The notes under the pieces are model-generated. The model saw nothing but the letters and a program-made list of their open reading frames with translations. It was not told the origin of the DNA and ran no database searches. Positions 17,652 through 46,200 of a DNA stretch of 64,000 bases are shown one piece after another. Position 1 is the stretch's first letter, and every line of letters begins with the position of its first letter. Source of the DNA: Tubiluchus corallicola (taxonomy: Eukaryota; Priapulida; Priapulimorpha; Priapulimorphida; Tubiluchidae); the NCBI GenBank assembly GCA_030141605.1, contig JAQGDQ010000350.1, positions 166,098-230,097 on the forward strand, given 5' to 3'. The translations under genes and the position numbers were made by a program.

Positions 17652-20600
17652 TTACCATGTTAACTTGATGTGAAATACTGAATAAAGATTAATTAAACAA
17701 GTTGTCATAGTTGTGCCAACTATCGTTGCTCTACTTTTTACAGATTGCACACAGAGTTTACCAGGTATGCATTTTGAATTTTTATAAAGATATTTCACTC
17801 TATCGATCCAGTCTAAATAAAAAGAAATTTTGGCTGCAATGTTTATTTTTAGAGGCCCGTATAGTTCTTCATCTTCAAATACTAAAACATTGTCTATTAC
17901 ACCAATAACCACACCTGTCTTTTTTAAAACGACTGGTCCACCTGAATCACCCTACAAATAAATGAAAGATATTACAGCCAGTTGTAATCATGGTCACATG
18001 ACACACGTGATCAATTTACAAGGCAGTGCAATTAAGAAAACAGTATTAGTGATAAATAATTTATCAAGCCAAGGAATTAAAGTTGGGAATGCTTTTGATT
18101 ATCGAACTGGCGAATTAAACTCAAGAATACTGGCGATTTTCTAGATAATGAATTTCTGCTAAACTGCTGTCGATAATGTTGCTATTGGCATTGCAACTGC
18201 ATTGGATCTTAATAAGTCCAAAAACCGGCTTTAGGATACATGTGCAAAGGAAAAAACTTTTCAATATTGCACCATTAATTTAGTTTGCTCTTGTATTGAC
18301 AGATCACAAAATAAAATGATGTGCTTGTTTTATTTCAATGCCAGTAACTTCTTCAGTTAGGCTATTATAAACGTCATTATGAAGACCAACGTAATACTAT
18401 AAATAAATACCATTGCAATTGATAATGGCTCTGATCAAGCTTAATCAAGTTATTTTAATTTTACATACTATTAAAAAATAATAGTCTTTCTATCTTTTAT
18501 ATCATTCCATATATGAGCTTCATTCATTACATCATTCTATTTTAAGCACTAATGTTTTTTTTATCAGGATTCACTTTAAATTTTCAGATTATCTCCATTA
18601 CTTTTTTTCTACCACAGTGTGGGACAATCTAACAAGCCCTGCTTCTTGATTGCCCACAACACATTTACCTTCGTGTATAAGTGAACAGTGTTTGAGGCTT
18701 TTCGTGTGCAGTATATCTTATTTTGTATTTTATCCATTGTAGGCCCTTTCACTAGATATTGTATATGTAACCATTGTAAATGTGTAATGTGAAATAAATG
18801 ACTTATGACTTATGGCTGATACATGTGTAGCAATTTGCTAGGATATTGCTGACACTGTACCAAGAGAGCTAAATGCTGAGCTTGTCTTATCGCTTTTCAG
18901 CTTGCAACACTTGCCTTGTAAAGGAAAGTGCAAATATTAAATATGCCTTAGCAACTACACCGCATTGTTTAGAATTCACTGTTCATGTCCCTGTTCTTGA
19001 TTCTTGGGGACATTTTCTAACCGATTCAACCGCGATAATATGAAAAAATATAATATATTTGTTGGCATCCTTCTGTCTCGGAAGACAATGGAGTGTGTGC
19101 CAAGAGAGTCAGTTATTGATCACATTGATGGAGCTGCAGCATCGACTGTGGCTGAGCAGTGCGATCCTTGAACGTCTCCAGGGCACACGCCTGGGCAAGG
19201 TGTATGGAGATCCTGAGTTGCCCAGACAACAGGAACCCCATTTCTTCCTCCTTGGTGTAGACCAAAGGAAAGCGGAGCGATACGTTTGGCACCAGGTTGG
19301 CTGCAGGAGCTGCCGGAGTCAGTGAGCATGCTACACTGGTCCGCCTTCGGGGCTCCACTCCTTATTTGGAAGGTTTACTCCTCTACACATGGCCGTTGGG
19401 TCACTTCACCTCCTCCGCCCTCTAGCCGTTGGCTGCTTGTGCAGTTTCACCGCCTGGTGTCGAGATACAGTGTGGGCATCCCGATTATATAATATATAAT
19501 ATAATTGTGTGTACCAGACTATGCATTTTGGGGTTATATAGACTATATATTACAGTTCACTTATTATTGTCTTCATTAGTTAATGTTGGTGTCAACGTTT
19601 TCACAATGTTTTAATAATAAACTATAATTACTTTTTATTTCTTTCTACATCTAAAACGTCAAATTCGTCCAGGTAATCACTCGCATTTTTTAAAACAAAA
19701 CACAAGGCAAAGCAACGGTTTATAAGCAAGAATGGAATGCATTCATTAAAAGCTGGTTTTTGGTACCTTCATGAGTAGTACTGTTTTGTTGTTTACACTT
19801 ACATGAACATAGTAACATTGCATTATTGCATACTTACATGAATTGTATGTTTTTTATACTTACCAAAGTAACACTACTTTCCGGATTACGTGCGCAGAAA
19901 GACCATGGGTTGTAATATCGAGAGCAGCGACCTGTATTTGACACTATTAAACGAGCCTTTTTCAAATGATTTCCTGTTGGTAAACCTAAGAAAAAGTAGT
20001 AAATATGTCAGGTGGCGCAGAGAATGTGCCAAAGTTTTGGTCACGTGAGAACAAAATTACAAATTCCTTTCAGAATTACTTCGTTGATATTACAGATGAT
20101 TATGTACACTCGTGTTTTACGCAAAACAGCCTTTAAATAAAGCAGCGGAGCAATTAAATCTGTAAACCAAAATACCAATATCGCGGCGAAAGCACTCAGC
20201 GAAAGTTGAAAAAAGCAGCCATTGGACTGCAGACGCACGTGACGACGTCTAAATGTAAATATTTGAGTTTTGCATACCTTCACGTTTTCCACCCCATCCC
20301 GCGACAATGACTTCTTCATTAACATAAGTGTGAACGTCACAAACTGGCAGAGTTGCAGGTTGAATATCGCTGTTAAACTTCACTTTTTTATTCATTCTCA
20401 CAAGAGCTATGTCATTAGGCTCTTCAACTGAGGCATTAAAGGGTCTATAATCAGGATGTGTTTTGTACCAAGCAACCTACAAACATACAAAACTAATTCT
20501 CACAAGAGCTGTGTCATTAGGCTCTTCAACTGAGGCATTAAAGGGTCTATAATCAGGATGTGTTTTGTACCAAGCAACCTACAAACATACAAAACTAATT

Positions 20601-23600
20601 CTCACAAGAGCTATGTCACTAGACTCTTCAACCGAGGCATTAAAGGGTCTATAATCAGGATGTGTTTTGTACCAAGCAACCTACAAACATACAAAACTAA
20701 TTCTCACAAGAGCTGTGTCACTAGACTCTTCAACCGAGGCCTTAAAGGGTCTATAACCAGGATGCACTTTGTACCAAGCAACCTACAAACATACAAAACT
20801 AATTCTCACAAGAGCTATGTCACTAGACTCTTCAACCGAGGCATTAAAGGGTCTATAATCAGGATGTGTTTTGTACCAAGCAACCTACAAACATACAAAA
20901 CTAATTCTCACAAGAGCTATGTCATTACGCTCTTCAACCGAGGCATTGAAGGGTCTATAATCAGGATGTGTTTTGTACCAAGCAACCTACAAACATACAA
21001 AACTAATTCTCACAAGAGCTATGTCATTAGACTCTTCAACTGAGGCATTAAAGGGTCTATAATCAGGATGTGTTTTGTACCAAGCAACCTACAAACATAC
21101 AAAACTAATTCTCACAAGAGCTATGTCACTAGACTCTTCAACCGAGGCATTAAAGGGTCTATAACCAGGATGCACTTTGTACCAAGCAACCTACAAACAT
21201 ACAAAACTAATTCTCACAAGAGCTATGTCACTAGGCTCTTCAACTGAGGCATTAAAGGGTCTATAATCAGGATGTGTTTTGTACCAAGCAACCTACAAAC
21301 ATACAAAACTAATTCTCACAAGAGCTATGTCACTAGACTCTTCAACCGAGGCATTAAACGGTCTATAACCAGGATGCACTTTGTACCAAGCAACCTACAA
21401 ACATACAAAACTAATTCTCACAAGAGCTATGTCACTAGGCTCTTCAACCGAGGCATTAAAGGGTCTATAATCAGGATGTGTTTTGTACCAAGCAACCTAC
21501 AAACATACAAAACTAATTCTCACAAGAGCTATGTCACTAGGCTCTTCAACCGAAGCATTAAAGGGTCTATAACCAGGATGCGCTTTGTACCAAGCAACCT
21601 ACAAACACACAAAACTAATTCTCACAAGAGCTACGTCACTAGGCTCTTCAACCGAGGCATTAAGGGGTATATAATCAGGATGTACTTTGTACCAAGCAAC
21701 CTACAAACATACAAAACTAAACCCTGTATATGTCAGTAAATTAATTAATCAGTCAGTAGAGCAACTACTCAGAAATTATTGAATAAGATTCAGTGAAAAC
21801 GCGAAGTTTATTATTTGAGATTATGTCTTGTTTACGGCAGTCTCAGCAGAATTATGATGTGGAAACCATGGTACTAAATAAAACACTCCTTAGATGATGC
21901 TCACAAACTCCAGAGCACACACGTGATGAGAGAAGAGGCAAACAGAGACGCACCACTTTTGAGAGGCCCGGCTGTTAAATCGTGGAGAGTTGAAATCCGG
22001 TCTGTGAAGATCGAGGCTACGGTCAAATGCATGTGCTGTTATTAAACATTCATGAAAGTTTTGGAGCAGTTAAGCAGTAAGAGCTCAAACAGAGCTTTTA
22101 AGCAGTAAGAGCTCAAACAGAGCTTTTAAGCAGTAAGAGCTCAAACAGAGCTTTTAAGCAGTAAGAGCTCAAACAGAGCTTTTAAGCAGTAAGAGCTCAA
22201 ACAGAGCTTTTAAGCAGTAAGAGCTCAAACAGAGCTTTTAAGCAGTAAGAGCTCAAACAGAGCTTTTAAGCAGTAAGAGCTCAAACAGAGCTTTTAAGCA
22301 GTAAGAGCTCAAACAGAGCTTTTAAGCAGTAAGAGCTCAAACAGAGCTTTTAAGCAGTATAAACTAACAGATAATTTAATAGCAACTCAATGATGTTACA
22401 GCACAAAAATGTCATGCTTATTGTTTAGCAGTTAGGAACATTATCCTCTGATGTATGTCTTCATGTGATTGCATGTATCATCTACTCCTTTAACCCTTTC
22501 TGTCCCAAATTATTTTTTTAATAAGAAATTTTTTTTTGGCTTGGTACTTTTGTTCAGTATGTCCATCTTGTTTACACATAATAATTATTTTTTTCTACTT
22601 GTGCCCGTGTGCTAAACATAGCCTGTATCCCGATATAGCCGATAATTTTTTAAAGTTTTCAAGACATTTAGTATGCACGCTATGCTGATCTGTACAAAGT
22701 CGTCTCTAAAGTACTGTTCCTTGCGCAGTTTTTTATGCTATGTAGATTTCTTAGTTTGCCAATTTTTCACCATTTTAGTCTATTGTTATTGGCTTAAATC
22801 AAAATAACTATTAGCAGATCAAATAACTGTCAGTTTTAAAATTTTATTAACTTTAAAGGCAGAAAATATTCTCGTATCCCACGGGTTACAACGGGTATGA
22901 AAGGGTTAATAAACTTCTACTGCATAGTTACTCCAGTTATTTGGGGCGCCATGATTGCGTTTTCCCTGTACAACCGACATCACAAGACGAACCATAAAGC
23001 ATTGCAAATAAAAGCAAAGCTAATTAACACAGCAACTTACTTAACCCCCCCCCCCCCCTACTAATGACATGGCAGTTACCACACCCAATAAGATACTTTA
23101 ACCGTGTTCAGCAAAAATTATTAAACAAAGGAGTTTCCATTAAAGAACAATAGTTAATACAGAAATAAATGATCCTGAAAAAGTCTAGGTGATGCCGAAT
23201 ACATCACTAGGAGATAAACGTGGTGCAGTGTAATGGTTTGGTGTTGATTTGTATGGTATGTTGTGGTTTACCGTGCTTTACAAGTAGTGTGGTGAGATGC
23301 ATGGGTGTAACATACTGTGGCGTGGTGAGATGCATGGGTGTAACATACTGTGGTGTGGTGAGATGCATGGGTGTAACATACTGTGGTGTGGTGAGATGCA
23401 TGGGTGTAACATACTGTGGCGTGGTGAGATGCATGGGTGTAACATACTGTGGCGTGGTTTGTTATGCAAAGACTTACCCAACGAATTACAGTCGTTTGAG
23501 ATATCATGTTGCTTCCCAAATATATTTGCAAGTGTTCCCCCGGAGTTTCTCTGCAACACGTTGGACAAATTAGATAACCATTTGGACCAGATGGAAAATT

Positions 23601-25777
23601 ATTATATAGACAAATTATGTTTAACAAGCATATAACGCACAGCTATGCTATCTACTACTAAAGCTGCAAGTTTACGTACTGGCTCATAAGCACACTGAAT
23701 AGTGCCACATACCACAACTTACATGCTATCATAAATACAGTGTGATGCACAACCAACCACAACATCTCTAAGCTTACAGTTTTACTCATAAATACTGAGA
23801 GCTGTGCTATGTACCACAACAATGACAAGTTTACATACTCGTAAATACACTGAACTGTATGTGGCATATACCATGACATCAGTAAGTTTACATACTCATA
23901 AACACAGTGTGTAAAGCTACATACCACAACAACGGCAAGCTTACATACTTGTAAATACAGTAAGCCGTGCCACATTCCATGACAAATGTAAGCTTACATA
24001 TACTTTTTCATAAACACAGTTTATTATGCTACATACCACAACAATGACAAGCTTACATTCTTGTACTGTGAGCTGTGACACATACAATAACAACCGTAAA
24101 CTTACATATTTACTTATAAGCTCACAGTGTTGACTACAAACAGCAACTACAGTAAGCTTACTTAAGCATACTTACTGATAAACACAGTGAGCCGCAGTCA
24201 AAATCCAATTTTTATCAATGATAGTTCCTCCACAGAAGTCCTCATTTCGTTTAATAAGGCCAACCTTTAGGTAAAAATATGTAAAAGAAGCCATACAGAT
24301 TGTATTGTGCTTAAGGCGATTTCTGTTTGTTTAAAATGGATGTAAAAACTTGTGTTTTAGTACCTGTACCAAGTATGACTTGTTCCTGTTTAGTTTACTT
24401 CAGCTAAGAGCATAACGTTTGATCATAATTGCTGATGCACCTCAAAAATAGTTCGTATACTAATGAGATGATTAATCTTCAAACTTTGTAATCCAGGTCA
24501 AACAGATTCTTACTCAAAACAAATATATAAGGAACATAGCCATTCTGTGTAAATTTAAATTATTTTAACGAGTTTGATGGCAGTATTCTATTCTTCTAAA
24601 AGCAAAAATTATATCCTATCAATAGTTACACCTAAGTTTAACAGCAACTAAGGCAAAAAGGGCTGGTCACTCCAAACTCTTTATTGATAACCAAAAAAGC
24701 TGATTATTAAAAATTCCTTATGGCAGCATGAGAAAACATTTACTTGATTCTATATTGACCTAGAATTGTTCCTTTCCGATCAACGTTGAATTAAAACCTG
24801 TCTTGATCACAAGGGTTGAGTGCAGTCTGGGCATTCATTGCTTGGAATTGAAACTGAAAGTTTGGCGTTCAGATCTAGATTAAGTCCTTACTGTCTTTCT
24901 TTTTGACCAAATGTTGGTAGATAATCAATAATCATGAACTTATTTCATCCTGTTGAAGACAGCATTGCAGATGAACGGTTTTGTAAGAACCTTACTCCTT
25001 GTGGTAACATATAACTGACATTGGATATTAAATTTTCAGTATAAAAAGTTCTTAGTCCCCTACTTACTTGTTTAATAACTTTATGCATTGAATTTCTCAT
25101 TAAATTTTATACTTCTACATTCCCATATGAAAAGTGTTACACGAAATTTCAGTGTTTGTCAAAATAAGTTATTTGATATACAGACCATAAAAGGAAATTC
25201 CCTCCCAATTACATCCTCTCCTCCACGAATTCTTGGTTCAGCTGTCAACCTTGCAACTAAAACAAATCAAAAAATCAGACAACAGAGTGTAAATTATATA
25301 TTCACCAGGTGTTCGGGATTTTTATGTATAAAATTATTATATACGTATACAATAATACATTCGCATCTGGGTTCGCATCCAGCTTATGCCATGCATGGTG
25401 TATAGAGACATTTGATACTTGAGTAGTATTTGCTGGCCGCCTGCTCCACTATATATATCTATCCAATCTTTAGTTCCACTGATTTCTCTACTCGCTATTT
25501 TAATAGGTTTTCATTATTCTGTGTACCCTTTGAGCATTTGGTTGGCTTGCCAAAGCCTAAAAAATAGAGGCTTAATAGGTAATGGAACCAAAGAATGAAG
25601 TATCTGGTACGTTTTTAAGTTTGCCTTATATAGATAGTTAGACAGTGACTGTTACGGACAAAAACCTTTGCAAAACGAACCATTAGCAGTTGTAGAAAGA
25701 GGAATTGATTTAGAAAGACTGGCATCAAACCAAAAACATGTGATACACACTAACGGAAGTAAAGCAGCTAGTTTCAT
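17652..25777 (-). CDS. secreted chymotrypsin-fold (S1) serine protease, catalytic triad intact
   Basis: Seven coding exons on the minus strand: 25777-25666, 25256-25186, 24264-24176, 23550-23478, 20476-20278, 19985-19864 and 17951-17652, totalling 321 residues. Residues 1 to about 20 form a signal peptide. Activation cleavage is expected after Arg46 in AEPR|IRGG. His87 lies in LTAAHC, Asp137 in NDIALVRM and Ser225 in GDSGGP. The residue at chymotrypsin position 189 reads Ser, suggesting a non-tryptic pocket, and Cys191 is replaced by Thr. After the terminal helix (YLDWIDRV) there is a tail of about 47 residues with three Cys. Likely an extracellular endopeptidase in digestion or defence. Donors of exons 1 (GTTTTT) and 2 (GTCTGT) are weak compared with the paralogue at 30.4-36.9 kb. 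Introns hold several minisatellites. AATAAA lies at 17550-17555 (minus). Expression is uncertain. Confidence 0.82.
18585..18815 (+). mobile_element. probable LINE 3' end
   Basis: A short frame resembling a LINE ORF tail is followed by an AT-rich 3'UTR-like stretch. It terminates in AATAAATGACTTATGACTTATG, a short tandem 3' terminus typical of CR1/L2-group non-LTR elements. It sits in the last intron of the first protease gene. The reverse-transcriptase body is absent. Confidence 0.4.
19059..19490. other. GC-rich island in a protease intron, unidentified
   Basis: About 430 bases with markedly higher GC than the surroundings and several overlapping open frames on both strands (19059-19325 +, 19358-19113 -). 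None has a domain I recognise. The composition break suggests an inserted retroelement fragment. The right edge meets ATATAATATATAATAT. Confidence 0.4.
20395..21722 (-). repeat. 102-bp minisatellite x13 derived from a protease exon and its splice acceptor
   Basis: Thirteen units, each exactly 102 bases (the GTACCAAGCAACC landmark recurs every 102 from 20467 to 21691). Read on the minus strand, each unit holds a splice acceptor (TTTGTAG), then 75 bases of protease exon 5 coding for VAWYK...NDIAL including the catalytic Asp, then a donor-like GTGAGA and 27 bases leading to the next acceptor. Only the unit at the low-coordinate end continues into the rest of the exon. An in-frame TAG separates units. 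Units occur as sequence types (KTHPD, KVHPG, KAHPG, KVHPD) in mixed order. Open plus-strand frames across it are shadows. Confidence 0.97.
22072..22358. repeat. 28-bp minisatellite, ten full copies
   Basis: Identical 28-base units beginning AAGCAGTAAGAGCTCAAACA start every 28 bases from 22072 to 22324, with a partial unit at 22352. No divergence between copies is visible, indicating very recent expansion. It lies in the intron between exons 4 and 5 of the first protease gene. There are no unique spacers, so this is not a CRISPR-like array. Confidence 0.98.
23045..23058 (+). repeat. poly-C tract (14 C)
   Basis: Uninterrupted run of fourteen C in the same protease intron. Confidence 0.95.
23290..23458. 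repeat. 33-bp minisatellite, about five copies
   Basis: Units of 33 bases, GGTGAGATGCATGGGTGTAA followed by CATACTGTGGC/TGT. The array begins about 20 bases past the donor of protease exon 4 (minus strand). Units differ only at a C/T position. The equivalent intron of the second gene holds a GTGGT-rich tract (33030-33150). Confidence 0.95.
23660..24175 (-). repeat. degenerate ~60-bp tandem repeat carrying copies of the exon 3 donor region
   Basis: About eight to nine diverged units. Each includes a version of CATAAACACAGTG and CTTACATACT, which on the minus strand is a copy of the end of exon 3 (CACTGTGTTTATCA|GTAAG) plus intron start. The array abuts the real exon 3 donor at 24175. Some units preserve a GTATGT or GTAAGC donor-like word. 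Minus-strand frames across it are repeat artefacts. Confidence 0.75.
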
Positions 25778-25894
25778 CTATGGCTCGCAGATCTTCCTGA
25801 AAAGGATAATCCAAAAAGATTAATAATCGGCCAACAATAATGCAAAACAGGCATAACAATTCCATATATTAGATTGCAATAATTAGTCCATCAA

Positions 25895-30405: not shown

Positions 30406-33400
30406 TTAACTGTAATAAAATACTGCATAAAATATACAAGTTGCCGCAGTTGTGTGAATTTCTGATGCTCTACTTCTTACAGATATTACCGTCGATTTGC
30501 AGACTTTACCATCCATGCATTCTGAATTTTTATGAAAATATTTCACTTCGTCGATCCAATTCAAATAGTAGGAGACTTTAACCATCACAGATATTACTTT
30601 AAAACAATCATAGCGTCCATTCTCATTGCTATCCAATCCTATTATAGTCGATAATACACCAATTACCTGACGTCGGTTTTTCCAAATGACTGGTCCACCT
30701 ATATCACCCTACAAATGAATGAAAGATATTACAGCCAGTTGTAATCATTGTCACGTGACACACGTCAAAATAGATAAATTCGCCTATAAACAGACGAAAG
30801 TTATTATAGACCACTGTAATCACGGACACTTATCTTCCTGTCTAACGAATTTAAGTAATGAACTAAAGAAGACAATATGGGGGTAAAAAAATTATCAAGC
30901 TGATAATTAAATTTAGCAATAAGCTGGTGATTAACAAGGTAGTGAATAAAAGAGGCGAATAGTGACAATTTTCACGCTAATTAATTAAATCCAAAAATTT
31001 TGATGATTATCGAACTAATGAATTAAATAAAGCATACTGGTGATTAATTAAACTATTGAATTAAAGTCAAGAATATTGGTGGTTAATTAAACCAATGGAT
31101 TGAGTCAAGTATAGTATGTATAACACAGCGCTACTTTGGTGCCACTTTGGACAGCAGAGGGCCATTACGCTTGCATCAGTTAGAATGCATGCCCTTGTAA
31201 AGGTAAATTTCATGCATTTGATGTGGATAACTACACCTGGATAAGAAAATTATGGGGGATGAAGATAATAACAAAATTGTTACGCCAAAACCAAAGATTT
31301 TCTACACATTTTTGAGATATTTTGCAGAAAAACTGCCAGTTTTTATCCTTTGTCTTTGTCACATTACAGGTTGCAGTATGGAAATTGACTCAGCGATTTA
31401 CTTTACCTTTTTCTTAATTCTTTAGCATTAATATAGGCATGCAATCCTAGACAGATCTAATCATTTGTCAGTTGCAAGGAAACAGGATATCGTAAGAACT
31501 TTTCTAAAGTTATTTTGTTAAACTTCATTAACTTGTTAAAGTCCAGATGTTTATTAGTTAAATGAGTTTGTTTCCCTGTCCTAACTTCTTGTGGACAATT
31601 TCCTACTGATACAACTATGATAGAACACGTAATTGCATATACATTGCATCTTAGGTTCCTTTAGGTTATGTATTACAGATCACACTTAAGCATATTAACT
31701 TCAAATAGGCATCTCCTTTTAATTATCAATTCTGTCACAATTTCACACATTGAGGTTCAATATTGTTTTTGGTTACCGAAAAAGTTGGAACTTAACCTGG
31801 GTAATCACTCGGATTTTTTTCAAAAATAATACACCGGGCAAAGTAACGATTTATAAATCAGAATATGATGGTCTCAACAAAAACTCATTTTTTCAACTCC
31901 TATGAGTAGTAATAGTATAGTTTTGTTGTTTACACTTACATGAGTAAATTTCCTCATGTACATGCGTTTATACATGAGCGTTTTATACTTAAATTAATAG
32001 TATGGTTCTATTTTATGCTTATGCTAGTAGCATTCTGTGTTGTTTAAATGTTGATAGGTAGTATTGTTTTACTGGTTGTTAAATGAAAACAATAGTATGT
32101 CTACGCTACTGGAAACAGTATACTTACATAAGTAGTACAGCGCGATTCATGGCGTGCGCAAAAAACAACTGGCGGCCTCGAGTAATATGGCTCGCATGTG
32201 TAATTATTCGCAATTAAAAGAGCTTTTTGTAAATTATCTTGTATTGGCAAATCTGAAAGAAAAGTAAAATTCTAAGCATATAAGCTTAATGAGTGATATA
32301 TCAAACGTCATAAACCAAACGGGAAAGAAGTTGTAGAAAAAATATGTTACAAATAGAATGCATGTTTGCATATGTTTGTTTACACAATCTTTCCTGAACC
32401 TATTTGCCTCTTATATTATTCCACATTATGATTTGCTTTGATACTTAATTATTAGTTGGTCCCTTCCATCTATTTGAATTTTGCGTACCACGGTCAAGCT
32501 CGCCCCATCCCACGACAGTAATTCCTTGTCCAACATAATGGTGAACGTCACAAACTGGTAGTGGTGCAGGTTGAATATCGCTGGTAAACTTCACTCGTTC
32601 ATTCATTCTCAAAAGGGCTATGTCATTACGCGGGCCACGTGAAAAATTAAAAGCAGGATGCACTTTGAACCAAGCCACCTGTAAAAATACTTAACTAAAC
32701 TTTGTACAACTTAGTGAATTAATCAATCAAATAGCCGTCCAATTATCTCACTCAAAGAGATTTTTAACTGTTTTTTTCTTTATTTAGTTTATTACTTTAT
32801 TTTATTTCCACAATGCCAATAAAAAACAGCATTGTTATAATTTGCAAAGAGGAAGTTATGTTAGTACAACAAATAAACAAAATTTAAATTCATAATAAAT
32901 TGATATAACGGCTCAGTGATAATGCATTACTAAATCTTATGGTTTACATCAAAGATCAATTGTTATAACAAATTTGTTGTGGAAAGAATTGATGGCTGAA
33001 AAAATGCGTCACTAAGATATATGTATGCATTGGGGTGGCTGTGGTGTGGTGTGGTGTTATGGTGTGTTGTTGTGTGGTGCGGTTTAATGTGATGGATGTG
33101 GTGTGGTTTGGCGTGGGGTGATGAAAGAGATGTGGTGTGGTCAGGTGAGGTGACGTTAATATGGAATACAATTTAAAATTATACAAATTTTACTTGCTTG
33201 TACGAACTAATCCAGAAAAAAATTGAAATTTAACTTCTGTTGATTATTTGAACACAAATTGATTGAAACAAAAACACAGCATGAACATATTTGAAGATTT
33301 TGGTAGTTCTTTACTAGCTTTAAACATAAGAAATTGATTTACATAACCTGATTATGTGTTTATAAGTATGTGTGAGCAAGGAAAGAGTGTATAGGTGTAG

Positions 33401-36400
33401 CTTTTGTATTGTACACAAATGTATACATATCATAATAATGTATATAGCAGATACTATTTATATTATAATAGTGTAGATGTGGCTTTTGTATTGCATACAA
33501 ATGTATATTTACATCATAATAGTGCATGGGCAACGCTTACCCAACGAGTTATTGTCGGTTGAGAGAGTATATTGCTTCCCAGATGTATTTGCAAATGTTC
33601 TCCTGGAGTTTCACTGCAAAACGACAATTTTGTGTTACTTTTAAAATTCTAAACTTGTTTTTCAAGATGGACGTTGTAGATTAGATAAACCAATTCGTAC
33701 TACACGAATTATTATCTACACAAAATGTTGTTTATCAAGCATAATTATGACACAAAACCCACCCTCACAGCAACTATAAATTATTACATTACGTTACCTA
33801 AAAAGACACTCTGTTACTACGATATTCCGATTTGCTGCAAACTATTTATAATTAATTCGGATATAAGAGATACCTGGGCACAGATACTTGTATTCATAAT
33901 ACTTATATTCATGTTGTAAAATACACTTTTGAGTTTTATCGATCAAGGAATACACCATTACATAAATGTCTTTTCCTGCTAGAGCAAATATTCTTGTTAG
34001 AAATTTTTTATTTTCCATTAAAGATGTTAATACACAATGGTTTAAGACCTATTGCGCAAGCATCTATGGTATTGTGGAGAAACTACAATACCAATATTAT
34101 TAAAGAATGGAAGGCTAGTTCGTAGGAAGGAACATTCCTAGTTGTGAGCGCTCACAAGCGCATAAGTTAAATGCTTGTAAAATTATCGAATCGTAATTTT
34201 TGTTAACTGCTTTGGTAATTGTTTAATAAAAGCTATCATCACTGTTACTGCTTTTGTTGAATTACTTTGCTGAATTGGAAGTAATTGTAAGTGTATTCTC
34301 GTTAAAGACGCTATCTGCTTCAGGAAACTAGAGTATTCACATTGAAATGGCTTATTGCGGGAGCCAGCTTGATAACTCGAGAGATAAAGATCTATTTCAC
34401 AATGCGTATTTCGTGGTTCAAGGTCGTGTGGGAAATTATCATTGCCCTATAGATCAAACCTAAGCTCTCGGAGTCGGGCAATTAATCGATCACAAATTAA
34501 TTGTCTTAAAGAAATGAATTAATGAATTAATGAATGTGGATTAATGAAATAAGTCATTAGTATAAAAGTTAAATCGACAGTACCTTTACGTACTTTCTTA
34601 TGAATACACTTGGCGGGGCTTTGTGCAACAACAGCTTATGGTTGCATTAGCTGCATTAGCAAACTAAGCCACAGATAAAATGCATATATACGTTAACGAC
34701 TGTAAGCAGTAAAGGAAAGCTGCTTTAAATAGTGATTTTGAACAGGTGAAAAATTATTAAATTAATCATTCAAGGTTAAATGGTTGACGATGTAAGAGTA
34801 AATTATCGTCGTGGATAGAAGCCCAGCCAGGTGTTGCATAGCACATTATCAGCTGATGTTCGTCCGGCAACTCAGAAGTAAAGATCAATGATGTAATAAT
34901 TATGCGCAGAAGCTCATGGCGCATTAGGAGTTCGACAATAGTGCTTTGAGGCCCGCACCTCGGGGGAGATTAGGAACAGACGTTAAGACGGAGAGCTGGC
35001 ATTACCATCCTCTTATATTTACCGTGTTGTGTTTAATATTTAATAAATGCGTAGTTTATTAAATAAAGTCTTGATAGTTCGCCATGCTCATTGTGGCTAC
35101 CTCCCGCACCACACAATAAACAACAACAATCAGCAAGCAGCTTTATCCACTATAATAAACAGACTTTAACGCACTTTCTACACCAATTATTTTACTTAAG
35201 CTTACATGCTTACTCAAAAACGCAACGAGCCGCCGTCATGATCCACATATTATCGATGAGAGTTCCACCACAATGAGGTTTATTCCGTACTACAAGACCA
35301 ACCTTTAGGTAAAAAAATTACAAAACAAGTGATACAAATTACCCGCGCTTATTTTCTGTGATTAAAAATGATTATAAATATTTCTGTTGCAGAAAAGTGA
35401 GATGTTCCTAGTTTGTTTACTTCTACTGAAAGCATAAAAATGACCAGAATAACTGCTACACCTCAGATGTACTTCATGCACTAATGAGAATATTCATCCT
35501 CAGTCTTTATAAACCACGTCAAACAGATGCTTACTCAAAACTAAAATGAATGCAGCATAGCCTGCAATTGAAATTGAGTTTGGTGGCAGTATTGGATTTT
35601 CTAAAATGCGGATGCTGCCAATACTTGCGCCCTAGTTTAACTGCATGCTGGCCAGAAAAAGCGGATCTCTTCAAACTCTTATTTTGGTTACAAAAACAGA
35701 TTATTAAAAATTCAATATGGCAGCATGAGGGAACTTTCACTTGGTTTTGTGTAGACACAGAATTGTTGCTTGCTGATCAATATTGAATTAAAGCCTGTCT
35801 TAATCATTAGGATGTGGCTTGCAGACGTTGCCAGGAATTGCAATCTGCAAGTATGGCATTCAAATCTAGGTTCACTCTACACTTTTTCTTTATTTTTGTG
35901 TTTAGTCCATTTCAATAATCATGAACTAATTTCAACTAGCTGAAACAACATCCAAGATAACTGGGATTATAGCAACCGGTCAGCTAATATGTCTTGTCTA
36001 AACCCTCGGTAAAGCAGGAACTTTGAATTTGCAAAGTAACAGCCTTATGGAAGCATTATTATTGACGTTTATTATTAACTTTTCTGTATAAACAGAAGTT
36101 AGTGGTTTCCTACTTACTTGTTCAATAATTTTCGTGCGTTGAATTTCTCATTGAATTCTACATTCCTATATGAAAAGGATAACACGAAATTTCAGTTTTT
36201 GGGAAAATAACTCATTTGATATGCATACCACAAACGGAAATTCCCTCCCAATTACATCCTGTCCTCCTCGAATTCTTGGTTCAGCTGTCAAATTGGCAAC
36301 TAAAAAACAATAAAACAGGCAACAGAGTGCAAATCATACCTTCACCAGATGTTGTTACATTTGTGATCTTTGATGGCGTCTTTAATTCGTCAATAAAATA

Positions 36401-36853
36401 AAATAAATAGCATATACGCATGCGCATTAGATACACAAATTTTTTATTCTAAATTATTTTATGTAGATCAGGGGAGGAAGTAGATGAAAGTTGAGTCTGT
36501 GTAATTAATTTTAGATGCATTTGAAACCTGTTACTGATTCTCTTTAATTTCTTTTTAAACTGGTGGAGAGATTTTACTTTTTTTATTTCAATTCCTTGTT
36601 AATAAGGCTTAAGCAACAACGTCTTACCCAATTGTAACCACGCAGTGCATCACAGCTGTAATGGACGAATTATTATCCAGGATCTTCATTGGGTAAATGA
36701 GTTTGTCTTATACAGATTATTTAAAAGTTACTGAGACTAACCTTCGTTAAGTGAACCATTGGCAGTTGTAGAACGTGGAACTGATGCAGAAATACATTGG
36801 TCAAACCAAAACCATGTAGTACACACTAACGAAAGTAAAGCAGCTGGTTTCAT
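30406..36853 (-). CDS. secreted S1-family serine protease homologue, catalytically inactive (His->Arg, Ser->Ile)
   Basis: Seven coding exons: 36853-36742, 36299-36229, 35302-35214, 33613-33541, 32678-32489, 32252-32128 and 30708-30406, giving 320 residues with phases identical to the paralogue at 17.6-25.8 kb. Signal peptide at about residues 1-22; activation-like site AEPR|IRGG; Cys pairs around the active site kept. Position 87 reads TAARC (CGT) where His is required, and position 223 reads GDIGGP (ATA) where Ser is required. Asp134 (NDIALLRM) remains. All donors look normal (GTTAGT, GTATGC, GTAAGC, GTACGC, GTAAGT) and there is no frameshift or internal stop. This combination fits a retained pseudoprotease, a class known to act as binding or clip-cascade cofactors; its actual partner is unknown. 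The C-terminal tail after YLNWIDEV is again Cys-containing. Confidence 0.84.
33030..33150. repeat. GTGGT-rich tract in the pseudoprotease intron
   Basis: Irregular GTGGTGTGGTGTGGTG sequence at the position equivalent to the 33-bp minisatellite of the first protease gene (intron between exons 4 and 5). Confidence 0.8.
34790..35095 (+). other. possible solo-LTR-like segment in an intron
   Basis: A GC-richer patch with GAGGCCCGCACCTCGGGGGA is followed by TTAATAAATGCG and AATAAAGTCTTGATAG, resembling the poly-A-signal end of an LTR. No duplicate, TG...CA ends or target duplication could be fixed. Confidence 0.25.
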
Positions 36854-36984
36854 CTATGGCTCACAGACAAGACCACATTCCTGAAAATGATAATAAAAAA
36901 AGATTAATAATGTGCCTGCAACATTGAAGAAACTGGCATAATGATTCCAAATAATATTACCTAGTTTGGAATCATTAATACTTA

Positions 36985-37085
36985 CTGACCAAATCAAACC
37001 AAAAACAAGATGTACACACTAGCGAAAGTAAAGCAGCAGATATTAAAACTGACTAGACTACATTCCTGAAAATGATAATCAAAAA
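36985..37085 (-). repeat. partial extra copy of protease exon 1 region
   Basis: CAAACCAAAAAC, GTACACACTAGCGAAAGTAA and ACATTCCTGAAAATGATAAT repeat the sequence at and upstream of exon 1 of the second protease gene (36800-36895). The start codon region and signal-peptide frame are not preserved, so this is a duplication scar. Confidence 0.7.
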
Positions 37086-37097
37086 TAATAAATAATC

Positions 37098-37413
37098 TTG
37101 CTCTCTCTCTCTCTCTGTCAGTCTCTCTCCCTCTTTCTCTCTCAGCTCCCTCTCTCGCTCTCTTTCTCTCTCTCTATGTCTCTTTCTTTCTCTCACTTTG
37201 TCTGTCTCTCTCTTCCTCTTTCACTCTCAGCTCTCTCTCTCTCCTCTCCCTCTTTGTCTCTCTCTCTCTCTCTCTCTCGCTCTCTTTCTTTCTCTCTCAG
37301 ATCTTTCTCTCTGTCCCTCTCTTTCTCTCTCTCTCGCGCTCTCTTTCTCTCTCTCTCTCTCGCTCAACTTCTCTCTCTCTCTTTCTCTCTCTCCCTCCCT
37401 CTCTTTCTCTCTT

Positions 37414-37452
<39 letters not shown>

Positions 37453-37539
37453 TACTCTCTTACACTTTTTCTCTTACACTCTTTCTCTCTCTTTCTCCTG
37501 ATCTCTCCCTCTTGCTTTCTCTCTCTCGCTTGCTCTCTT

Positions 37540-37583
<44 letters not shown>

Positions 37584-37749
37584 TCTCTCTCTTTGTCTGT
37601 CTCTCTCTCCCTCTTTCTCTCTGAGTTCTCTCTCCTCTCTCTCTCTCTTTCTCTCTCTATGTCTCTATGTCTCTTTCTCTCTCTCTCTCTTTCTCTTGGT
37701 CTGTCTCTCTCTCTCTTTATCTGTCTCTCTCTCCCTCTTTCTCTCTCAG

Positions 37750-37792
<43 letters not shown>

Positions 37793-37937
37793 ATCTGTCT
37801 CTCTCTCCCTCTTTCTCTCTTAGCTCTCTCTCCTCTGTATCTCTTTCTCTCTCTCTCGCGCTCTTTTTCCTTCTCTTTCGCTCTCTTTCTCTCTATCTTG
37901 CTCTCTTTCTCTCTCTCTCTCTCTTTCTCTCTATCTA

Positions 37938-37971
<34 letters not shown>

Positions 37972-37995
37972 GCTTTCTCTGTCTCTCCCTCTTTT
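37098..37995 (+). repeat. ~900-bp CT-rich microsatellite
   Basis: Long (CT)n with CTTT, CCCT and TGTCT variants. Extended Ser/Leu or Arg/Glu frames on either strand are repeat artefacts. Strong pyrimidine/purine strand asymmetry. It lies upstream of the second protease gene and has no counterpart upstream of the first. Confidence 0.97.
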
Positions 37996-38565
37996 TAAAA
38001 ATGACTCATAATACTGCCTAGCTACAACTGTGTTCAATCCTCTTAATCTTTAAAATAAATCAATAGTTCATAAAGTGTCTAGTAATTAAAATATCACTCA
38101 CCCAAGCGGCAGTCAGTGCAAAAGAAATCTGCAAAAACAAAAAGGAAAGAAAAACACACACAAGTATATATGAACAATAAAATAAATAAATTAAAATAAT
38201 GATAACAAAAATTGCAGATCTCTTTCTTCGATTCACGTTCAAGTTTACACGCTGAAAGTATAAACCAGAATGACACTTCTTTGCACGAAGCCTTCCAAAC
38301 TCGCGTAGTCTTGGAAACGCAAACGCGTCTTGAAAACAATGGGCGACTGTCATTGTACTGCGTCTATAGTTTTAATAACTTCCCAACCTTACATATATTA
38401 TGCTATGAAAAATTTGAAAACTCTCTCTCTCTCACTCTGTTTCTCTCTCTCTCCCTCTTTCTCCTACCAACATTCACACAGTTACTCTATCACATTCTTT
38501 GCGAAAATATATATCCAGTGCATGCTAAAACTTTTTATAAATTATGCAAATATTCACTAAACACA

Positions 38566-38762
38566 TCTTTCTCTCTCTCTCTCTCTCTCTTGCTCTCTCT
38601 TTCTCTCGCTCTCTTTCTCTCTCTTTCTTTCTTCTCTCTCTCTTTCTTTCTGTCTCTCTGTCTTTCTCTCGCTCTCTTTCTCTCTCTCTCTTTCTTTATC
38701 TCTCTCTTTCTTTCTGTCTCTCTCTCTTTCTTTCTGTCTCGCTCGCTCTCTCTCTCTCTCTT

Positions 38763-38836
<74 letters not shown>
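38566..38836 (+). repeat. second CT-rich microsatellite
   Basis: (CT)n and (CTTT)n block of about 270 bases; a minor CT run also occurs at 38419-38462. Ends at TCTCTCGTCACG. Confidence 0.97.
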
Positions 38837-38839
<3 letters not shown>

Positions 38840-39089
38840 ACGTAGTTTTGTGTAGTTTTCGAGCAACAACGGCTCTGATAAATGGTGACAAAAATGTTCA
38901 TTTAGAGAGAAAGGTAATTAAAACAAGTGTTAAGTAATTGTGCGTCTTGTTGTGGACATTACTTTGGTATTATTAGATATGCTGTAAGTGGAGCGGTTTT
39001 GTATTTATTTGAAAAAAAACCTATACTAGAAATAGCCATAATCATAATTAATTACAAGAACCACATGGTCAAACGGGTTTGGCCATTCT

Positions 39090-43217: not shown

Positions 43218-46200
43218 ATGTCTATACAGACTCGTAGTAAAACGGCTAAGATGGAAAAAGCGTTAAAAAGTACATATGAATCAGGAGACGAACAACATCT
43301 TTCTGATACTGAAACTGAATTTGAGGCAGAAACTTTGGATCAAACTTCATCTGTTGATCCGCTTCCCTCAGATGGTTATCAAGGGGTTAAACCTAAGAAG
43401 CCTGTTGTTACTGTCACTACTACTGACACGCTAGCTTCGACGACAGCGGCTAAACCTGTAACTACGGGTACGGCTACAATTACTACTACAGCTATTCCTT
43501 TGCTGCCTACTTCGAATCCTGCAGCTGCGATGAAAATCGAACCCCAGCAAGTGGCGGCCAACGCTAGACTTTCTTCTTTTATGCTTATCCGAGCCAAACA
43601 AATTGAACAAATACACAAAGATGAACTAGAAGCCAACACTCTTATCTCAGCTTCTTCTAGTGTTATCTCACGAAACCCCAGTCAATATTTACAGCGGGTT
43701 AAAACTTGCATAGCCTCACTCAAGGCCAGACTTCAGAAGATAGACCAATTGTCAGAATCGATCTTGCAACTATCGGACCCCCACTCTGTGCTTGAGCTTA
43801 CTGCACGCTATACAGATGAAGACATCTTACTGTCTAACCATGTGACTTCTCTGATTGCCCAATTAGACATTAAGACTGACAGTGACTTACGAACTAGCAT
43901 CTCACCTCAGTCACCAACTCCATTTCATCAGTCATCATTCAGTTCACCGCATGCTTATAGTAGAATTCCTAAACTTGAGATTAAACCATTTAACGGAAAT
44001 ATACTTGAATGGCAAACCTTTTGGTCAATGTTTTCTGATGTTGTTGATTCTAATCCTGATCTATCTAAAGTTCAAAAATTTCAGCATTTAAAATCTAAAC
44101 TTACAGGTGTTGCTGCTCGCGCAGTCGAGGGTTACATAGTTAATGATTCTAATTATTCTACTGTTATTGATTTATTGAAAGACAGGTTCGGCTGCCACGA
44201 AACGATTATTCAGCGGCATCACAAGGAGTTGACACACCTAGAAAAGTGTGGTGATGGTTTAAAAAATTTACGCAGGTTTTTGGATAAAATCGAAGTTCAT
44301 CTCAGATCCATTGAGAGTACAGGTCGCAGCGTTGATAGTTCCTTTGTTGTACCGCTTATAGCCGAGAAACTTCCATATAAGGTGCTTTCGGCTATTCAAA
44401 CGACAAAAGACATGACTAAGTCCAAATCGTGGTCAGTGGAAGAGTTACGTAATAGCTTGCGTGACTATGTGATACGACTGGAAGCTTTAGAAGAACAGCT
44501 TCACCGTCAACCTTCCACCCCTTCGTCATGGAAATCGGATCGTCCTAAGCCGGCTAGCACTACTAGAAATGACAGCGTGCTGCAGGCGGTGGATCGACCA
44601 GCTAATGCTGTTAAACGTCCAGGGAATTTCAACAGAGGTAAGCGCTCCTTTTGTACTTACTGCAAAAGTTCTGGACACTTTAATGATGACTGTGATGTTT
44701 ATACAACTATTTCTGCTCGAAAATCTTTGCTAGTTAATCGTTGTTTGAAATGTTTAAATGATAGTCATTATTCTTCACAGTGTAAATCATCAGGATTTTG
44801 TGCATACTGCAAAGTTCCTGGTCACCACAGAAGCCTCTGTCCGAAGCGTTACCCTCAGGGCAATGTAGAACACAAGAAGTTATCCCAGCAACAATCTTCG
44901 AAGAAACCTTTACTGTCTCAGACAGCTTCCGAAAACGCTCTATACTCATCTGAAGAACGTGTTTTTCTGTTGACAGCTTCCTGCGTTCTTGGCAACCCTT
45001 TTTCGGATGCCAAATTACCCACGCGCTGCTGGATGGATACAGGGAGTCAATGTTCTTACATGACAATGCAGTTTGCCCAACAGCTAGGTCTCAATCTCGG
45101 TAAACTTGATCATCTCTACCTTGGCACCTTCGGCACTAATAGTGTGCAAAGAGTACCTTGCTATACTTCCAGAGTGAACATGCTTACCAAAGACAACAAA
45201 ACTTTACCGATGGTAGTCCGTGTTGTTGAGACAATCTCTCCCGCCACTCATCGTCTAGTTTTGCCTAATGACATCTCAAATTACCTGAACCGTACTTATG
45301 GGCCATCTTTGGCTGACGACTTCTGTAATACTGACGGCACTTTAACCCGAATTGATTTTCTCCTTGGCAACGACTATTTTTTCGAGATACTTAAACCATT
45401 AAAAATAGAAGTTATACCAGGATTTTATCTCTTTGATTCTCACCTTGGGTATATTCTTGGAGGCAGAATACCCAATTATCAAATCCTTGAAACTACACCG
45501 CCCCACAAATCCAGTCTTTTGTGCTTTGAACCAGGCGTGAGAACTGATGGTCTAGACGAGCCTCATAATTCTACTAATATTTTTGAAACAGTTTTTGCTA
45601 GCTTTGACCACCAAAATAAAAGCAAACCCATTGATGTTGATGTAGACAGGTTCTGGGAATTGGATACAATTGGCATTTCTGACTGTCCTACCAATTCTGG
45701 TGATGTGGAAGCGGAGAAAAATTTCAAAAACACTATAGAGTACAGAGAAGGAAGATATTACGTTTCATGGCCTTGGAGAAAGAGACAAGAGGTGCTACCA
45801 GATAATTATGCTCTGTCAATTGGTATGTTAAAATCTTGTTTGCGCAGACTCTCCTCCAAACCAGAGTTGTTGGAGAAGTATCATGGTATTATTCAGGAAC
45901 AACTTGGCAAGGGAATAATCGAACTTGTGACAGATGACACTATCACAGGTAACACATTACATTATCTTCCTCACCACCCAGTGATAACACCACAGCGTGC
46001 TAGCACAAAGATACGTATTGTGTATAACGCATCAGCTAAAGCTAATAAGGCTAGTCCTTCTCTCAACGAATGTTTATATAGAGGAACTGTACTTATGCCT
46101 GACCTATGTGGGATTTTATTACGTTTCAGGATGCATCCGTATGCTATTGTTAGTGATATCGAAAAGGCATTTTTGGCGGTAGGTCTTTTAGAGCCTGACC

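Follow-up and report, generated by a model that had tools for sequence, protein, structure and literature searches.

Organization of the PS locus

The DNA analysed here (the window) is a stretch of 64,000 nucleotides in the 249,488-bp scaffold C1724, part of an assembly of 343.5 Mb in 2344 sequences. It carries two related trypsin-like genes, PS and PB, on the minus strand (Table 1). Reconstructed from the DNA letters, PS runs from 36853 to 30406 and comprises seven coding exons, which give 963 nt and 320 aa with no stop or frameshift. All six introns have GT...AG ends, and the reading phase after exons 1–6 is 1, 0, 2, 0, 1, 0. PB lies downstream in the same orientation, has an identical number of exons with identical phases, and is 58% identical to PS. 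In exon 6 a plain DNA alignment of the two genes places gaps of 4 and 7 nt; in the protein alignment the gaps are in frame, and both frames are open.

Table 1. Features of the PS and PB genes in the window, and exons of the PC gene on scaffold C738.
Feature	Coordinates	Strand	Description
PS exon 1	36742..36853	-	Start codon, signal peptide, start of propeptide; 1.8% different from PC
PS exon 2	36229..36299	-	Propeptide and activation site AEPR/IRGG; 4.2% different from PC
PS exon 3	35214..35302	-	His57 position reads TAARC, codon CGT
PS exon 4	33541..33613	-	From gene model and PC comparison
PS exon 5	32489..32678	-	Asp102 retained (NDIALL)
PS exon 6	32128..32252	-	Without Cys191; Cys217 (about position 189), absent in PB and PC
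PS exon 7	30406..30708	-	GDIGGP at the Ser195 position (codon ATA); Cys255, absent in PB and PC; C-terminal tail; stop codon
Relic of duplicated exon 1	36993..37046	-	Upstream of PS; start codon missing
Paralogue PB	17652..25777	-	321 aa; triad intact (TAAHC, NDIAL, GDSGGP)
PB exons 1–7	25777-25666, 25256-25186, 24264-24176, 23550-23478, 20476-20278, 19985-19864, 17951-17652	-
102-bp tandem array	20394..21815	-	13 spaced copies, ends approximate; at PB exon 5
PC exons 1–7 (C738)	18872-18761, 17980-17910, 16982-16894, 14747-14672, 13885-13696, 13302-13175, 11040-10750

Each unit of the 102-bp array carries a splice-acceptor-like site and repeats the initial 87 nt of PB exon 5, Asp102 motif included, and the full exon continues from the last unit only. 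Use of the upstream acceptors would give early stops, and this 'active' paralogue may thus be poorly spliced. The PB donors GTTTTT and GTCTGT also seem weaker than those of PS, as judged by eye.

Other features of the window were noted in passing. A long GA/CT-rich stretch of low complexity (approximately 37084–38900) lies immediately upstream of PS. About 20–30 nt upstream of the starts of both PS and PB there is an acceptor-like TTTTCAG (36881–36900 and 25796–25805, minus strand), which could belong to an intron in the 5' UTR or to a trans-splice site. On the plus strand, 43218–49154 is an open frame encoding 1978 aa, in which Pao-type retrotransposon domains are recognised. A search of the window against Rfam returned no matches at gathering scores, and a search of the assembly for COX1 found none.

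The catalytic histidine and serine of PS are replaced

The Pfam Trypsin profile (PF00089) matches residues 47–272 of PS with 117.3 bits (cut-off 20.6) over profile positions 1–220, a full-length match that places PS in the S1A trypsin fold. When PS is aligned with enteropeptidase of solved structure, TAARC coincides with the His57 motif and GDIGGP with GDSGGP, the Ser195 motif. Codon 57 is CGT in PS, CAT in its closest relative PC (described below) and CAC in PB, and is one base change away from CAT. Codon 195 is ATA in PS and TCA in both PB and PC, two base changes apart, and codon 102 is GAC in all three genes. The triad of PS therefore reads Arg, Asp and Ile, which is not that of an active S1A protease. 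A serine protease homologue is an S1A-fold protein in which one or more residues of the triad are replaced; in PS two of the three are. In the established mechanism of the S1 family His57 is the general base and Ser195 the nucleophile, and the observed Arg57 and Ile195 thus lead us to infer that catalysis has been lost.

PS retains Gly193, Asp194 and its activation site. It also has two cysteines that are absent from PB and PC. As placed by eye, the one at aa 217 falls near position 189 and the one at aa 255 within the loop that follows 215; a new Cys217–Cys255 disulfide, near the missing Cys191, is possible. A search of NCBIfam with PS gave no matches. A GPI anchor was considered and is not claimed, the C-terminal hydrophobic stretch being weak (best 15-residue Kyte-Doolittle mean 1.25).

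A sequence-only reading of this locus had proposed that both His and Ser were lost, through two independent events, from a gene that otherwise kept its Asp motif, activation site, signal peptide, seven exons, splice sites and open frame. The rebuilt model and its codons agree with this in the parts checked, the losses requiring at least three base changes, and the enteropeptidase alignment, a check of the kind that reading had suggested, confirms positions 57 and 195. Its comparison with clip-type homologues of arthropods is not supported: Pfam gives no clip domain in PS, only Trypsin and a DUF1986 hit below threshold. PF00379, the arthropod cuticle family, has no matches in the genome, a weak negative since none of 14 control genomes matched either.

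A sister gene with an intact triad

Searching the animal's own genome with PS, in which 125 of 205 candidates were scored, identified PC on scaffold C738 (957 nt, 318 aa), which is built like PS and reads TAAHC, NDIALL and GDSGGP. A tree of 26 family proteins joins PS and PC as sisters (support 100/99), with PB next (100/100).

The start of C738 holds the 5' part of another PS copy, PS', which comprises exons 1–3 and also reads TAARC. Between PS and PS' the divergence is 3.0% for intron 2 and 5.0% for the portion of intron 3 present in PS'; the corresponding values for PS and PC are 4.1% and 5.1%. These similar distances suggest that the loss of His57 is old relative to the PS branch, and that Arg57 probably arose early on it. 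Our search found no exon 7 for PS', so Ile195 has a single witness. Over approximately 1 kb PS and PS' are identical; this stretch starts upstream of exon 1 and reaches into intron 2, and beyond it the two are 3–5% different (L039 positions 1–2500 against window 34671–37112). Recent conversion, a shared haplotype or an assembly effect are possible causes of this identity.

Divergence between PS and PC is concentrated in the protease exons

The introns of PS and PC differ at 213 of 4478 aligned positions (4.8%). This count leaves out 50-nt windows, every one of them in intron 3, that differ by more than 30% and were taken to be non-homologous. The 3' flank differs by 3.9% over 355 nt. Exons 3 to 7, by comparison, differ by 13.5, 13.7, 20.5, 19.2 and 16.5%, respectively. 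The points at which the rate changes coincide with splice sites: exon 5, at 20.5%, is flanked by introns at 4.0 and 4.7%. Exons 1 and 2 differ by just 1.8 and 4.2%, and the last ~80 nt of exon 7 by about 2%. The changes are dispersed across exons 3–7, with no exchanged segment visible.

Over exons 3–7 dN is 0.230 and dS 0.115, a ratio of 2.00 (bootstrap 1.24–3.49; at or below 1 in 0 of 500 replicates). All 12 differences in exon 3 are non-synonymous, and in exons 4 and 6 the ratio is 0.67 and 0.92. A codon model written for the present analysis, with PS and PC pooled and compared against a ratio of 1, gave 1.94 (p = 0.015) for exons 3–7 and 1.67 (p = 0.044) for all exons. For single branches over exons 3–7 the estimates were 1.54 for PS (p = 0.38), 2.44 for PC (p = 0.07) and 0.44 for PB. 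Parsimony with PB as outgroup assigned non-synonymous and synonymous changes at 44:9 to PS (p = 0.086) and 52:7 to PC (p = 0.007), with 19:3 unresolved.

When differences were polarised with PB, the PS branch had changed at 53 of 753 sites in exons 3–7 and at 20 of the 1468 intron sites that could be used (p = 9e-12), with 22 exon and 15 intron differences omitted as unassignable; PC had changed at 23 of the same intron positions. The intron windows in this count were selected for similarity, which biases the intron rate low. Taking half of the PS/PC intron divergence (2.4%) as the yardstick brings the exon/intron ratio of the PS branch nearer to 3, and exon change on this branch exceeds even the entire two-branch intron divergence (p = 0.012).

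Synonymous change between PS and PC in exons 3–7 is also above that of the introns (18 over 168.7 sites, p = 0.0018), as it is on the PS branch (p = 0.0015, with hand-rounded site numbers). Selection acting solely on the protein does not explain this. Together with the PS/PS' identity, the raised synonymous rate suggests gene conversion or haplotype sharing, and the introns may be younger than the exons. In such a history conversion would be the main source of the exon/intron contrast, having homogenised the introns, exons 1–2 and the tail while differences in the protease exons were kept, so that PS would be older than its introns suggest. The PS/PS' pair, identical for about 1 kb and then 3–5% different, fits this account, which we regard as possible but less likely than not. 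Conversion alone offers no reason to halt at splice sites in each of five exons, which implies that something keeps the exons different; dN still exceeds dS; and among the 125 of 205 candidates scored, none was a closer donor for the divergent exons than PC. The question it raises concerns rates, and it can be compatible with a PS that is maintained without catalysis. Younger introns would weaken the intron yardstick and leave the frame evidence and the excess of dN over dS unaffected.

The comparison with PB lacks this pattern. Exons of PS and PB are 27.9% different and the best-aligned intron (intron 2) 27.5%, the other introns aligning poorly, and dN/dS is 0.62 (bootstrap 0.46–0.81). The C-terminal tail is constant in the PS/PC pair, yet that of PS has just 52% identity to that of PB. 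The lack of acceleration relative to PB indicates that the fast phase is confined to the PS/PC pair, atop a longer period of constraint.

The reading frame of PS has been retained

The coding gaps between PS and PC are of 3, 3, 3 and 9 nt, all four multiples of 3, compared with 6 of 27 gaps in introns 1, 2, 4, 5 and 6 (p = 0.007). Without constraint, 16.4 frame-breaking gaps would be expected per 138 coding differences, the number observed between PS and PC. In simulations of an unconstrained gene, begun from PC as a stand-in for the ancestor, the gene was still intact in 0.07% of runs after 45 substitutions, 0.45% after 33 and 7% after 16.

These results bear on whether PS is a young pseudogene that lost catalysis by drift and has kept its frame by luck. 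The PS-branch ratio is indistinguishable from 1, the non-synonymous share on that branch is not significantly above neutral, and, if only 16 substitutions (approximately the intron rate) followed the loss, the 7% of intact runs would apply. On the PS branch, however, exons 3–7 outpaced the introns, every splice end is retained, the gaps are in frame, and 33 or 45 unconstrained substitutions rarely leave a gene intact. Arg57 is moreover common to two copies that are 3–5% apart in introns 2–3. A decaying gene would be expected to change at the intron rate and to have a broken frame; these data thus favour a maintained pseudoprotease, and we consider recent decay improbable. The sequence-only reading had suggested a pseudoprotease without decay and had named a dN/dS near 1, with frame breaks in other individuals, as evidence to the contrary. 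Its first claim gains support from the rates and frame in the PC comparison, although not from the PS-branch ratio by itself. That same ratio leaves the second point ambiguous; the faster change of exons 3–7 than of introns makes relaxed decay alone insufficient, unless gene conversion had kept the introns alike.

Catalytic motifs among other family members

The longest fitting frames of 36 trypsin-like loci, some of which represent the same place twice, read GDSGG in 35 cases, the last being unreadable owing to stops. A further 40 fragments with the Ser195 motif, chosen by eye from about 54 such rows, comprise 38 with GDSGGP, one with GDRGGP (L078) and one with GDAGGP (L082). The seven fragments nearest to PS (L063–L069) all read GDSGGP, L069 having stops afterwards. 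Among 20 His57 fragments 14 were readable, 13 with His and one with Gln (L086). As judged by these motifs, other putatively dead members are present in the genome, and PS is the only one seen in the near subfamily. L078 (GDRGGP) and L086 (TAAQC) lie about 5 kb apart on one strand of scaffold C2247 and are possibly parts of another pseudoprotease gene with a double loss. A survey of Tenebrio molitor counts 269 serine peptidases, 137 with conserved triads (PMC11172050), which suggests that dead members are ordinary elsewhere.

Cys191 is absent in PS, PB, PC and 21 of 28 relatives (L009–L038 minus the window's own L012 and L034), present in six and unreadable in one. Many of the L009–L038 loci are intronless, retrocopy-like relatives of the seven-exon family with frames of mostly ~315–385 aa, most of them with His57 and Ser195. 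Their divergence is mixed. In several close pairs the coding differences exceed those of both flanks (L011/L015: dN 0.067, dS 0.069, flanks 0.016 and 0.045); in others one or both flanks are more different than the coding region (L018/L029, L013/L018). Across 25 intronless pairs, several of which overlap, dN/dS ranges from 0.39 to 1.73.

A probable maintained pseudoprotease

Considered together, these observations argue that PS is a secreted S1A homologue which is unable to cleave, is maintained rather than decaying, and most likely acts as a binder; we give this reading a probability of roughly two in three. The data favour maintenance and diversification; a binding role and a partner are inferred. 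In the model we propose, the protease domain of PS and its sister PC would have diversified fast, with signal peptide, propeptide and tail nearly unchanged. The trypsin fold and loops of PS could offer a surface recognised by a substrate, inhibitor or receptor of active relatives, where PS might compete, shield or tether. As the zymogen switch (the activation site and Asp194) is retained, PS may still alter its shape when the propeptide is cut.

Two further explanations deserve little weight. Residual catalysis through other residues, to which the presence of Asp102, Gly193, Asp194 and the activation site might point, is very improbable given that nucleophile and general base are replaced by Ile and Arg, which under the S1 mechanism are unable to serve. 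Errors of assembly or haplotype mixing as the source of both losses are just as hard to credit: there is a single assembly, PS' is either an allele or a duplicate, C738 is partly N and Ile195 has one witness, yet Arg57 is no single-sequence error, as PS' carries it in surroundings that differ from those of PS, Ile195 requires two base changes, and the introns and exons are well formed.

Dead proteases are common, and whether one is decaying or functional is rarely visible from one genome. Here an active sister with introns 95% alike provides a yardstick inside the gene, which makes the case for maintenance measurable. The loss occurred in a gene pair whose protease exons face a strong, exon-limited pressure, and this pressure is a more interesting lead than the loss of catalysis itself. 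A bolder view, which we hold tentatively and would not expect to prevail, is that PS and PC represent a trypsin-like branch outside snakes that evolves like venom or gamete-recognition genes. In that case the protease domain would change 3–5 times faster than its own introns, and PS would be a pure binder in which the new cysteine pair replaces the 191 disulfide.

Comparison with known systems

Dead proteases like PS are an already known kind. The clip-domain serine protease homologues of arthropods are catalytically dead S1A proteins, from which PS differs in that Pfam finds no clip domain in it. The scabies mite inactivated protease paralogues (SMIPPs) are S1A paralogues without catalysis, one of them with a solved structure (PDB 3h7o). 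PS likewise is an S1A paralogue that has lost catalysis; unlike the mite family, it is the sole dead member seen in its near subfamily.

The nearest precedent is the serine protease homologues of viper venom. In the published alignment His57 is replaced by Arg in 13 of 15 homologues, the usual loss, and rhinocerase 2 has Asn in place of the catalytic Ser; the authors conclude that the triad was lost several times in the family and term accelerated evolution established for snake toxins (PMC3123349). PS shares the S1A fold and the His57-to-Arg replacement. What sets PS, PB and PC apart from the venom proteins is a missing Cys two residues ahead of Gly193-Asp194, a gene of seven coding exons and a different C-terminus. 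Nothing in the PS data points to a snake or to venom. Under the name ASSET, snake venom genes have been described in which introns are similar and profound differences are limited to exons, coding regions changing faster than introns (PMC2711939). This arrangement of alike introns and divergent exons is found between PS and PC and is absent between PS and PB. Here the PS/PC changes are spread over exons 3–7 with a raised synonymous rate, and neither an exchanged segment nor a donor was found among the candidates scored.
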